21,326 nucleotides of DNA, taken from a virus. Positions 13,544-17,486 of this stretch are shown in pieces. The notes below the pieces were generated by a model. It searched no databases. It saw nothing but the letters and a program-made list of their open reading frames with translations, and was not told where the DNA came from. The first letter of the stretch is position 1. Each line of letters begins with the position of its first letter. Where the stretch lies: the IMG/VR virus record IMGVR_UViG_3300025896_000217, positions 1 to 21,326 of that record; one strand, written 5' to 3'. The position numbers were made by a program, and so were the translations under genes.

Positions 13544-15616
13544 TTAAAACTCATTCTGATTGCTTGGTTTGGACATCAGCCATACAAATTTGTCTCTGAT
13601 TCCGATCAGTCCAGCCTCTGATAACCGTTCCTGAGCGCGATTCCATGCCTTGTTAAACGATGCTTTCTGGATGCTATTTGAGTCATCTGTGATGCCCTTC
13701 TTTGACCGAAATTCATTGTGCCAATCGTCCAAATAAACAACCATATGCTGGTTGCCCTCAATAAACTTTAATACTCCTTTTGCTTTTAATACATTTTCAA
13801 GGCTGACCATTTCCATGGTCTGATTTTTGCCACTGCCTGAGTTGCTTTTAGTCTTCTTTTCAGCCGCAAATTTGACCGCCTCATCGCTGGCCTGTACTGC
13901 TAGGCTGGTGATCGGGTCACCTATTTGCAGCGATCCAGCTGGCGGCGCGAGTTCCACGCTGACCATTTCAAAGCCGATTCTTGTGCCGTCCTCACCGTCC
14001 TTTTGCTTGGCTGTGCGGATGATGCCTTTCATAGAGTCCTCAAACCTAATCAATTCCAGTTCGGTGTCTACCGCGCCTAAGAGGCTGGAGTGGCCGCGCA
14101 GTCCTTTGGTGGCATCCTTGCCGCTGTGGTGCAGGATCATCAAGGCGCAGTCCTGAACGATCTGCTGGATGCGTCCGCAGCTGGAGATGAACGAACCCAT
14201 GTCGCTGGAATCGTTCTCGTTGCCGCCGCCAAAGGCTCTGGCTAAGGTGTCGATGATGATCAGCTTGAAGTCGATACCAAGTTCGGTGACAAGGTTTTCT
14301 ACTGCAATCATGAGCGCGTTAAAGTCCTCCACGCTTGATCTCAGGTTTAGCTGGTGCCTGATAACGTAGATCGGCGCGCCATCCTCAGTACCGTGGTGCT
14401 GCTTGATGGCCTTGATCCTTGCGCCGACACCGCCAAACCCTTCCCCGCACAGGTACAGCACCGCGCCTTGCTCTGTCACCTCGTTCCCCATCCACGTCCT
14501 GCCGGTCGCTATCGCCTCGGCAATGTCCAAGGCAATGAACGACTTGAACGAGCCTGGCGGCCCGAACAAGGCGCTGAAACTACCTACCGGCAGCACCTTG
14601 TCTATCATCCACTTCACCGGCTCGTCTTGGATGCTGTCCCAATGCTCAATGTTGATCTGCTTTGGCGGCTTGGCTTGTACTGCTGGCGCTGGCTCTGTTT
14701 CAAATTCCTTGGCGATGTCCGCTGATAGATTCCACGCGGCCATGGTGACTTCCACCACTGAATTTGTAATTGGATTCAACCTTTCGGGCATTGTTACCTG
14801 ATCCACACTTGTGATGATTAGCGCTGCCTTGACCAGCGCCACCAGCTTCTCTCTGCCTGCGCCAGCCTCAATGAATTCATAGGCATCATCTCCTTGGCCT
14901 TGCAGGCCGAGGTCTACTACCTTGACCGACTTGGCGATGGGAAGTATTGCTTGGGCCGCCTTGTGCGCGTACTGCCAGCCAGGCGTGTCGTTGTCCGGCA
15001 ATATGATGACCTGAGCGCCAGCAAAATACTCGGTGATAGCCTCCGGCCAGCTGCCGGCACCAGTGTGCGCCGTTGTTGCGATCATGCCAATGCTTGTGAT
15101 GGCATCTGCGGCTTTCTCGCCTTCCACCAAGAAGATATTCCTGCCTGCTGTCTTTGCGTCCAGCAATGCGGGTAAGTTGTACGGCACTATGCGCGCGTCC
15201 CCAAGGCTTGAGTGCCTACGGCCATCAGCGTCAACCTTGTACAGCCGGTAAGTCTTTCCTGCCTCGCCTACCTTGTACCGCTGCTTGACGAATACCGTTG
15301 TCCTGTCCTCGTCCTGATACTGCCACTCCTGCTCCAAGATATTGCGCGGTATGGGTTTGATGTTTGCGAGTGGGTCGGGGCGTTCCATGAGTTCCGGCAA
15401 CAGGTGCAGTTCCCTGATGGTCTGGAACACGTCCTCCTGACTGCATCCACCGTGACAGTGGAACAGCGGCACGCCGTCATCATTGATGTCTATGCTGAGA
15501 CTCGGATTCTTATCGCCGTTGCCTTTGCCGTGACCAGGCACTGGGCAGCTGGCTACCCACTGACCGTTTGCTTTCTTTGCGTTGCCGAGCGTCTTGGCTA
15601 TTTGTTCTGCTTGCAT
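13544..15616 (-). CDS. Primase-helicase (zinc finger, TOPRIM, RecA/RepA-like ATPase)
   Basis: This 690-aa replication enzyme should make primers and unwind DNA at the fork. The zinc-binding N-terminus is C24, H29, C54 and C58 (ASCPVPGHGKG; FHCHGGC). The TOPRIM domain has E165 (LVEGEKAADA) and D208/D210 (ILPDND). After a linker, the hexameric helicase ATPase has Walker A GPPGSFKS (352-359), Walker B IIID (453-456) and a LILHHSGK-type segment (494-500). I start it at the ATG at 15,616, which has AGAGG 4 bases upstream, rather than at 15,652. It then overlaps the methyltransferase 3' end by 19 bases. It is comparable to T7 gp4 in plan, with a RepA/AAA-25-type motor. Confidence 0.85.
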   Translation of the reverse strand: MQAEQIAKTLGNAKKANGQWVASCPVPGHGKGNGDKNPSLSIDINDDGVPLFHCHGGCSQEDVFQTIRELHLLPELMERPDPLANIKPIPRNILEQEWQYQDEDRTTVFVKQRYKVGEAGKTYRLYKVDADGRRHSSLGDARIVPYNLPALLDAKTAGRNIFLVEGEKAADAITSIGMIATTAHTGAGSWPEAITEYFAGAQVIILPDNDTPGWQYAHKAAQAILPIAKSVKVVDLGLQGQGDDAYEFIEAGAGREKLVALVKAALIITSVDQVTMPERLNPITNSVVEVTMAAWNLSADIAKEFETEPAPAVQAKPPKQINIEHWDSIQDEPVKWMIDKVLPVGSFSALFGPPGSFKSFIALDIAEAIATGRTWMGNEVTEQGAVLYLCGEGFGGVGARIKAIKQHHGTEDGAPIYVIRHQLNLRSSVEDFNALMIAVENLVTELGIDFKLIIIDTLARAFGGGNENDSSDMGSFISSCGRIQQIVQDCALMILHHSGKDATKGLRGHSSLLGAVDTELELIRFEDSMKGIIRTAKQKDGEDGTRIGFEMVSVELAPPAGSLQIGDPITSLAVQASDEAVKFAAEKKTKSNSGSGKNQTMEMVSLENVLKAKGVLKFIEGNQHMVVYLDDWHNEFRSKKGITDDSNSIQKASFNKAWNRAQERLSEAGLIGIRDKFVWLMSKPSNQNEF

Positions 15617-16827
15617 ATTGCCTCTACTTCTTGTATGCGTTGTCCGATCCACGCCATCACAGGCACTGCCATGCTATTGCCCAATGCTTTGTAGCGCGGG
15701 CCATCAGGCGTAGGTTTGCCCTTGGCTTGGATGTCGGTGTAGTTATCGCCAAAGCCTTGGAGTCTCTCGCATTCTTTTGGTGTGAGTCGGCGTACTGCCA
15801 TTGATGATTGATATACCGAATACACCTGTTGCGTCACCTCAGATGACTGTGGCGATCTGCTTGGATCGTTGGCGGCAGTAAGAGTAGGTGCGACAACTGA
15901 ATGCGCCACCGCCATCGGATTCTTGGCTTGCAGGGTTTGCGTCATGTCCACATCTGTCTGCGGGTTTGACATCTGGCCGCTGAATGCAATGGGTTGCGGA
16001 ATTAATCGGCCTGTATATGCATCTTGTCCACTGTATGAACCTGGATGAGTATCGGCACATAAAGCGCCAACAGTTTCATGAATAACAAGTGGAGTCTGGT
16101 TGCTGATACCGGCAGTTCCACCTGTATTGTGGCAAGTTAAAAAAGGCACTTCTTTTGCACCACCCTCTGCATTCACAAGATATTTTGATGGTGCTAATTC
16201 TTCGTGGTTGTTACGACTGATTCCAAAGCGTGCTGCAATTGTTCCGGCAACACCTTGCCCATTTTCTCTGCTCGGCGCAGGATTCCCTGACAGGCTGTGG
16301 CGCTCAAAAAGAACCGCTGCGGCAAGTCGCCAATCTCCAAGGTATCCGACAACGAACACACGGCGGCGGCGCTGTGCCACTCCAAAGTATTGAGCGTCAA
16401 GCACCCTGTATGCGAACCCATACCCGCATTCTGCCAACCCTTCAAGGAAGCTGCCAAAGTCCCGTCCTCCATTGGAGGACAGAACGCCGGGGACGTTCTC
16501 CCAGACCAACCAGTTGGGGCGATATTGTTTAGCAATGGCAAGATAGGTAAGCATGAGGTTGCCACGAGGGTCATCCAATCCTTTTCTGAGTCCAGCGACA
16601 CTAAATGATTGGCAGGGAGTTCCTCCAACGAGAACATCGACATCTGAGACATTTGTCCACTCCTTAAATTTCGTCATGTCGCCAAGGTTTGGCGTTTGTG
16701 GATAGTGGTGCGCCAGCACCTGTGAGGGGAACTTTTCGATCTCTGAATACGCTACTGCTTTCCATCCAAGGGGATGCCATGCAACTGTTGCCGCCTCAAT
16801 ACCACTGCAAAGTGAGAGATATTTCAT
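15598..16827 (-). CDS. C5-cytosine DNA methyltransferase, orphan
   Basis: This 409-aa enzyme methylates cytosine at C5, probably to shield phage DNA from host restriction. Motif I is LSLCSGIEAA (4-13), motif IV is GGTPCQSFSVAG (68-79, nucleophile C72), motif VI is WENVPG (109-114), motif VIII is QRRRRVFVVG (152-161). The target-recognition region spans about 165-345. Motif IX is RRLTPKECERLQGF and motif X ALGNSMAVPVM near the C-terminus. All catalytic motifs are intact. No restriction endonuclease is adjacent. No Shine-Dalgarno is visible before the ATG, and a terminator ends only 17 bases upstream, so expression must depend on readthrough or an unseen promoter. A second gene is nested inside codons 59-212 in another frame. 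The target sequence is unknown. Confidence 0.92.
   Translation of the reverse strand: MKYLSLCSGIEAATVAWHPLGWKAVAYSEIEKFPSQVLAHHYPQTPNLGDMTKFKEWTNVSDVDVLVGGTPCQSFSVAGLRKGLDDPRGNLMLTYLAIAKQYRPNWLVWENVPGVLSSNGGRDFGSFLEGLAECGYGFAYRVLDAQYFGVAQRRRRVFVVGYLGDWRLAAAVLFERHSLSGNPAPSRENGQGVAGTIAARFGISRNNHEELAPSKYLVNAEGGAKEVPFLTCHNTGGTAGISNQTPLVIHETVGALCADTHPGSYSGQDAYTGRLIPQPIAFSGQMSNPQTDVDMTQTLQAKNPMAVAHSVVAPTLTAANDPSRSPQSSEVTQQVYSVYQSSMAVRRLTPKECERLQGFGDNYTDIQAKGKPTPDGPRYKALGNSMAVPVMAWIGQRIQEVEAICKQNK
16194..16652 (-). CDS. Overprinted gene nested in the methyltransferase gene
   Basis: This 152-aa frame lies wholly inside the methyltransferase, same strand, shifted by one base, covering its codons 59-212 (motifs IV, VI, VIII). 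Its ATG at 16,652 is preceded by a perfect AAGGAG with a 7-base spacer. The protein has ordinary composition: MSQMSMFSLEELPANHLVSL opening, GWSGRTSP (48-55), GWQNAGMGS (72-80), and FFLSATACQGILRRAEK (114-130) followed by MGKVLPEQLQHAL. From memory, the segment (Y/F)FLSxxACxGILRRAEKRGKxLPxxLxxAL recurs in many phage hypothetical proteins beside or overlapping C5 methyltransferases, so it is probably a real overprinted gene. Its function is unknown. An anti-restriction or methyltransferase-modulating role would be a guess. Confidence 0.72.
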   Translation of the reverse strand: MSQMSMFSLEELPANHLVSLDSEKDWMTLVATSCLPILPLLNNIAPTGWSGRTSPAFCPPMEDGTLAASLKGWQNAGMGSHTGCLTLNTLEWHSAAAVCSLSDTLEIGDLPQRFFLSATACQGILRRAEKMGKVLPEQLQHALESVVTTTKN

Positions 16828-16843: not shown

Positions 16844-16873
16844 GAAAAAAAACCGCTGGGGTTAGCCAGCGGT
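16844..16873 (-). terminator. Intrinsic terminator after the SSB-like gene
   Basis: On the minus strand an 8-bp stem ACCGCTGG / CCAGCGGT (16,873-16,866 and 16,859-16,852) with a 6-base loop is followed by eight Ts. It lies 16 bases after the SSB-like stop codon and ends just before the methyltransferase ATG. Confidence 0.85.
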
Positions 16874-16889: not shown

Positions 16890-17486
16890 TTAAAACATCT
16901 CGTCATCAGCCACTGCTGCGGCCATCGCAGTTTTCGCTGGCGCTGCAACTGGCGGTATGAACGCTGGCCTTGCTTGCGGCACCGGCGCTGGTGCAGCCTC
17001 CTGAGCAGCGTCAGCATCCATGCCAGCGGGACGGTCGATCCATGACACGATATTGAAGTTCGGGATGCGTGTAGTGCCTTTGCCGATCTTCTCCAGCTTG
17101 GAGCCGGTGTACTCCAGCACAGGCAGCTTGTTCGGGTTGGCGGCTTGCTGCGCGGCGCAGTCTATGTACAGCTTTTGTAGCCCCATGTTTGGGCCTACGC
17201 CAGAAGATGACCACTCGCACAGCCCGAGCAGTTTGTTATAAAAGTGAATAATAAATCCCCTTTTATGGTCCGGCGTGGGTTGCGGTCCTTTCTTACCGAG
17301 TGACGCATCAGGTTGCCAATTGCGTACACCGACTCCAAGTTCGAGCCAACCGGTTTGCACATCATTGATGTCAAACACCACCTTTTTGAGTTGGATTTCC
17401 TCGCCAAGGTTATTTGTCCAAGCATTGGCTTGGGGTGAAAAGCGGATGTAGTTTCCATTACCGCCACCAGAGGATAAATTTAGCAT
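16890..17486 (-). CDS. Probable single-stranded DNA-binding protein
   Basis: This 198-aa protein begins MLNLSSGGGNGNYIRFSPQA. Residues 20-125 are beta-rich (LKKVVFDINDVQTGWLELG; HKRGFIIHFYNKLLG; LPVLEYTGSKLEKIG) and could form an OB-fold. Residues 150-190 are an Ala/Pro linker. It ends in the acidic tip ADDEMF, much like the DDxxxF tail that SSB proteins use to recruit partner enzymes. It sits directly downstream of the Cas4-like nuclease and near RuvC, a normal place for a phage SSB. No Shine-Dalgarno is obvious. The family is not firmly recognised; the call rests on tail, composition and context. Confidence 0.6.
   Translation of the reverse strand: MLNLSSGGGNGNYIRFSPQANAWTNNLGEEIQLKKVVFDINDVQTGWLELGVGVRNWQPDASLGKKGPQPTPDHKRGFIIHFYNKLLGLCEWSSSGVGPNMGLQKLYIDCAAQQAANPNKLPVLEYTGSKLEKIGKGTTRIPNFNIVSWIDRPAGMDADAAQEAAPAPVPQARPAFIPPVAAPAKTAMAAAVADDEMF

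Follow-up and report, generated by a model that had tools for sequence, protein, structure and literature searches.

The stretch 16194-16652 (minus strand) of a tailed-phage sequence, lying in the +1 frame inside the gene of a C5 cytosine methyltransferase, is on comparative sequence evidence a real overprinted gene and no shadow ORF. Profile searches show that the conserved end of its product is homologous to a piece of ordinary C5 methyltransferases that is absent from frame 0 of the overprinted-type enzymes, a relationship that is indirect for the clade of the phage analysed here. We consider it probable, with a probability of about 0.62, that the nested gene encodes a small subunit that delivers the displaced enzyme piece in trans, in which case methylation would depend on both chains.

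Gene layout at the methyltransferase locus

The window, i.e. the whole stretch of 21,326 bases that was analysed, is the complete IMG/VR record IMGVR_UViG_3300025896_000217, which may itself represent a genome fragment. It belongs to a tailed phage, as judged from minus-strand genes for terminase, portal, scaffold, major head protein, primase/helicase, exonuclease and resolvase. The methyltransferase, denoted here the alpha chain, comprises 409 amino acids (15598-16827, minus strand, as are all features below) and matches PF00145 with an E-value of 7.8e-57, and motifs I, IV, VI, VIII, IX and X can be followed along its sequence. The overprinted ORF encodes the 152-residue beta chain in the +1 frame of the methyltransferase; it starts with ATG, and the coordinates 16194-16652 take in the stop codon. 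The overlap equals methyltransferase codons 59-211 and includes motif IV (Pro-Cys-Gln, PCQ; 16609-16617), motif VI (Glu-Asn-Val, ENV; 16492-16500) and motif VIII (QRRRR; 16360-16374), all read from the sequence. Motif IX (RRLTPKECERLQGF, residues 346-359, 15751-15792) is retained in alpha.

The beta start is preceded, at a 7-base spacing from the ATG, by an AAGGAG Shine-Dalgarno sequence (16665-16660) formed by the Lys55-Glu56 codons of the methyltransferase. Further upstream the beta frame is closed by an in-frame TGA (16674-16676) made by the methyltransferase GDMT codons, and this stop occupies the same position in all listed homologues. Conversely, the methyltransferase start itself (..TCTAAAAAATACAAC ATG) has no Shine-Dalgarno sequence. 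The same absence was observed in 70 of 97 homologues, with the internal AAGGAG kept in 83 of 96. The sequence-only reading had described precisely this arrangement, that is, a complete 152-codon frame inside the methyltransferase, on the same strand and shifted by one base, with a perfect AAGGAG and 7-base spacer created by Lys-Glu codons, a methyltransferase lacking a visible ribosome site and an overlap covering motifs IV, VI and VIII. All of these elements were borne out, and the strand, which it had not given, is the minus strand. A terminator-like hairpin with a T run, recognised by consensus match only, is located directly upstream of the methyltransferase start (16852-16873), between the latter and the upstream gene (16890-17486). 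Considering the hairpin together with the missing Shine-Dalgarno sequence, alpha may be made sparingly relative to beta.

Evolutionary constraint on the +1 frame

Homologues were gathered separately by the overprinted protein and by the methyltransferase protein. The main statistics rest on the methyltransferase-chosen set plus the window (70 sequences below 95% DNA identity, median pairwise identity 66%), because the Firmicutes-type and P1-type sets were gathered by +1-peptide patterns; in these two sets the conservation of the segment is partly ascertainment, whereas the upstream stop depletion is not. The expected number of stops was obtained by resampling synonymous codons from the usage of each gene over methyltransferase codons 60-205. 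In the 70 methyltransferase-chosen sequences the +1 frame contained 3 stops as compared to 465 expected, and it was open in 69 of them against an expectation of 0.15. Likewise, the NTG start of beta was retained in 69 of 70 sequences (ATG in 30, TTG in 39), yet the methyltransferase residues around this position are variable.

The synonymous positions of the methyltransferase displayed a corresponding pattern. Mean pairwise diversity at codon positions 1/2/3 amounted to 0.19/0.15/0.50 upstream, 0.21/0.14/0.28 in the overlap and 0.25/0.15/0.55 over motifs IX-X. When the comparison was restricted to methyltransferase codons with invariant residues, position-3 diversity was 0.26 inside the overlap versus 0.55 outside (P 6e-12). 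At methyltransferase codons 181-195, within the conserved segment of beta described below, the pattern was inverted (0.40/0.16/0.11 for positions 1/2/3), as expected if +1 is the more constrained frame there. The N-terminal part of beta is also constrained in the window clade, with a third-position diversity of 0.33 compared to 0.50-0.55 outside. The sequence-only reading had held that both proteins are constrained in the same DNA, and had named in advance homologues of the small protein in other phages, stops in close relatives and synonymous divergence over the overlap as decisive. Homologues were found in many phages, no stops were found in the +1 frame of close relatives, and synonymous divergence drops exactly over the overlap; together with the inverted codon positions, this sustains the claim of dual constraint.

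The Firmicutes-type set gave a complementary picture. Relative to the segment, stops were depleted between approximately codon -110 and codon +30 (about 20 observed vs 535 expected) and returned to expectation on both flanks, with amino-acid constraint in this region limited to the segment. The combination of a stop-free region and constraint in the segment only implies that the preserved feature is translation that begins at an internal start and extends through the segment.

A shadow ORF, open and similar between homologues merely through conservation of the methyltransferase, could draw on the tendency of +1 peptides to share a parent-like composition and on the conservation of alpha over motifs IV-VIII. 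It is refuted by the stop deficit, by a synonymous constraint confined to the overlap, by the inverted codon positions and by the conserved NTG. Alternatively, the stretch could harbour an antisense gene or an RNA/DNA element responsible for the constraint, and antisense ORFs of about 100 codons are present in the window. However, the antisense and +2 frames hold 273-663 stops across homologues compared to 7 in +1, and the constraint tracks the +1 codon structure. By these comparisons we regard a shadow ORF and an antisense gene as excluded at any useful level, and an RNA/DNA element as hardly credible.

Relation of the conserved segment to ordinary methyltransferases

The conserved end of beta reads CSLSDxLE..RYFLSxxACxGILRRA; in the window the conserved segment spans residues 99-145 (the CSLSDTLEIGDLPQRFFLSATACQGILRRAEKMGKVLPEQLQHALES region, 16218-16358), and its Streptococcus form is CSLSDILEEEVDERYFLSAEMVQRLL. 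In ordinary C5 methyltransferases of Bacteroides, Phocaeicola and some Streptococcus phages, RLKDILEDSVDEKYYLSEEKTKQLI or LRDILEEEVDEKYFLSDEMIEGL forms part of the enzyme chain itself, approximately 10-35 residues past motif VIII. No open +1 frame was observed at this frame-0 piece in the four ordinary enzymes whose +1 frame was read. An HMM built exclusively from +1-frame segments matched the ordinary frame-0 enzymes just past motif VIII, with E-values of 9e-13 to 7e-9 for five phage enzymes and weaker matches at the same place in chromosomal C5 methyltransferases. The same HMM gave 0 matches among 257 frame-0 proteins of the overprinted type, and the best E-values in shuffled controls were 2 and 0.03. 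The similarity is also directly visible, as the frame-0 piece of a Phocaeicola phage and the +1 piece of Streptococcus phage MM1 share most of their 23 aligned residues. The presence of the segment in frame 0 of ordinary enzymes and its absence from frame 0 of the overprinted type indicate that the piece left frame 0 and now resides in +1. The arrangement may plausibly have arisen through a deletion that also altered the frame between motif VIII and the piece.

For the window clade the connection was made in two steps. Searched alone against ordinary enzymes, the clade gave a weak match (best E-value 0.0018), and the window segment showed no significant alignment to either of two chromosomal frame-0 segments when compared pairwise. 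The Firmicutes-type profile, on the other hand, matched all 93 window-clade members with E-values of 1e-9 to 4e-4. The homology is consequently transitive, running from the window clade via Firmicutes-type +1 segments to ordinary frame-0 segments. An enzyme piece located on a second chain and missing from the first, as in a two-polypeptide enzyme, was hence found by the segment HMM, indirectly so for the window clade.

Distribution, fused forms and a second family

Using tblastn, the +1 product was detected in 208 phage records and in 530 plasmid records, the latter mainly P1-like. P1 dmt carries the +1 segment, as do phages of Roseobacter, Mycobacterium, Akkermansia, Lactococcus, Streptococcus and gut Firmicutes. 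When bacterial genomes were scanned for the pattern, 80 loci were retrieved, from Proteobacteria, Acidobacteria, Nitrospirae and others, and a viral scan with the Streptococcus form likewise gave 80. Regarding the frequency at which the small protein is encoded within a C5 methyltransferase, which the sequence-only reading had singled out as informative, the segment lies in the +1 frame of such an enzyme in all bacterial loci and, by a motif rule, in 78 of the viral ones, the remaining two showing a methyltransferase-like frame-0 chain. No stand-alone beta gene was found among the 80 bacterial and 80 viral loci. That reading had also assigned the segment to many hypothetical phage proteins near C5 methyltransferases; the segment was the right one, but the proteins are not neighbours of these enzymes, being instead encoded in the +1 frame within them.

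Some loci deviate from the common layout. The annotated methylase gp113 of Mycobacterium phage Lucky2013 (L323, 1167-2006) stops before motif IX and is followed by small overlapping ORFs, with the +1 segment within, and is possibly another split form. In five loci (L177, L230, L242, L294 and L337) the +1 ORF continues into the recognition domain and motif IX, i.e. the C-terminal half of the methyltransferase, and frame 0 is out of phase there. These five fused forms count in favour of a displaced enzyme piece, but may be artefacts of sequencing or genes in decay. Poly-G runs occur near the end of the frame-0 ORF in L177 and L337, and these two forms may reflect phase variation, slippage or sequencing error.

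The fused loci, and the G runs in two of them, would be accommodated if the +1 frame were reached from frame 0 by programmed ribosomal frameshifting or transcript slippage, generating hybrid methyltransferase chains. Still, we regard this route as improbable. Avoidance of +1 stops begins approximately 110 codons upstream, at the internal start codon and not near motif VIII, the NTG start codon and the AAGGAG are conserved, and the usual +1 frame ends before motifs IX-X. Moreover, a single shift cannot restore the order of an ordinary enzyme, because +1 stops before motifs IX-X and, at the DNA level, the segment and motif VIII overlap.

A second C5 methyltransferase family with a +1 ORF of its own, of approximately 250 amino acids, was also observed (PHROG 1008, with WPTP motifs). 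Examples are found in L413 (1426-2190 within 1233-2243), L414 (1303-2073 within 1215-2060) and L460-L478. This ORF contains 1 stop versus about 54 expected over codons 41-280 in 17 homologues. Its end, LNPxxSRWLMGLPxxW, is slightly motif IX-like, and frame 0 of that family is without motif IX; no match to a motif IX HMM was obtained in the PHROG 1008 ORFs. PHROG 1008 was considered as a stand-alone relative of beta and rejected, as it is a +1 ORF inside a different C5 methyltransferase.

Structure predictions and profile searches

The AlphaFold2 model of beta was confident only at residues 114-151, which form a helical hairpin with predicted helices at residues 118-131 and 137-151 (16200-16301). 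Foldseek gave no match to the model at E ≤ 0.001, no hits were obtained against Pfam and NCBIfam, and PDB sequences provided no meaningful match. The PHROG 16143 profile matched the window beta at residues 46-122 with an E-value of 2.9e-8. For the N-terminal 100 residues neither a match outside the family nor a confident fold was found. Weak frame-0 matches to HMMs of this N-terminal part were discarded, as they fall in the same DNA register and were taken to reflect a property of the genetic code rather than homology. In the alpha model, predicted from a 31-row alignment, the catalytic domain was confident except for a dip at residues 73-86, and residues 186-320 had pLDDT <50. The nearest folds were M.HaeIII and M.HhaI, over about 165 columns of the catalytic part only.

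The main rival to a displaced enzyme subunit is that beta, while a real overprinted gene, is a separate effector derived from the enzyme piece, such as an enzyme regulator, an antagonist of host methyltransferases or a counter-defence protein, with the likeness to the enzyme reflecting mimicry or a bygone origin. Alpha retains motifs I-X, beta has an additional N-terminal 100 residues that are constrained too in the window clade, and Pfam assigns beta no function, all of which is in keeping with such an effector. We nevertheless judge it unlikely, given that beta is seen only inside C5 methyltransferases at the bacterial and viral loci scanned, and that an effector would not require loss of the segment from frame 0 of exactly these enzymes. 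The role guessed by the sequence-only reading, modulation of the enzyme or counter-restriction, is not favoured for the same reason that the subunit is: the conserved part is a displaced methyltransferase piece.

Proposed mechanism and its implications

In the proposed two-chain mechanism, ribosomes in frame 0 would make the C5 methyltransferase (alpha), and ribosomes initiating at the internal AAGGAG-NTG would read the +1 frame and make beta, of approximately 150 residues. The C-terminal part of beta would be the helical piece that normally lies within the enzyme chain between motif VIII and the target-recognition domain; missing from frame 0 in this lineage, it would be supplied in trans. 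Beta would then dock on alpha and complete the junction of the catalytic and recognition domains, so that methylation would need both chains. We infer the production of both chains, the binding of beta to alpha and the complex as the active enzyme from the genes; alpha, spanning motifs I-X, may be active alone. The break in the overprinted type coincides with the split site at which M.SssI fragments complement best, i.e. between motif VIII and the recognition domain (PMC3404938).

In a broader perspective, an indispensable enzyme piece would have moved to an overlapping frame to be made in trans, and the PHROG 1008-linked family may have done likewise with another piece. We give even odds to this reading as a whole, which concerns a phage enzyme family that is among the commonest and under which "frame-split enzymes" would be a recurrent design. 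Outside small genomes, DNA phages rarely contain long same-strand overprinted genes for which the evolutionary evidence is strong. Beta sits in a widespread orphan methyltransferase, P1 dmt included, and has been missed by most annotations. Should beta prove necessary, many of the phage methyltransferases that have been cloned or annotated as one chain would be incomplete, with consequences for anti-restriction work, methylome prediction and enzyme discovery.

Comparison with known systems

Prior knowledge of the family consists of unexplained labels only. PHROG 16143 is labelled "DNA methyltransferase", though its members are the overprinted +1 product, and orf14 of Streptococcus phage MM1 1998 (DQ113772), which matches the whole of PHROG 16143 with an E-value of 5e-82, is annotated in GenBank as "C5 methyltransferase beta subunit". 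Both represent the overprinted family described here, with the relative position and frame unchanged. No description of the beta gene, its overprinting constraint, its distribution or its relation to the ordinary segment was found in the literature, searched mostly outside subscription papers. In P1 the +1 segment lies inside dmt (L002, 1409-3673) and shares 58% identity over 62 amino acids, but upstream of the segment the +1 ORF differs and is shorter. The P1 segment is unannotated, P1 being among the best studied phages.

Two-chain C5 methyltransferases offer the closest parallels. The gene of the M.EcoHK31I large chain likewise encodes the small chain, in a different frame. As in that two-polypeptide enzyme, the small chain here would bear a conserved piece absent from the large one; however, the M.EcoHK31I small chain carries motif IX (PMC3404938), whereas here motif IX is in alpha, at residues 346-359, and the displaced piece is that between motif VIII and the recognition domain. 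M.AquI, a natural two-chain enzyme split after motif VIII, shares the position of the break, but its small chain holds the distal variable region and motifs IX-X (PMC3404938), which alpha keeps here. The five fused loci are closer to an M.AquI-like split. In combination, the best reading of these comparisons is that the alpha/beta gene would work like a two-chain C5 methyltransferase in which a different piece has been displaced than in M.EcoHK31I or M.AquI.
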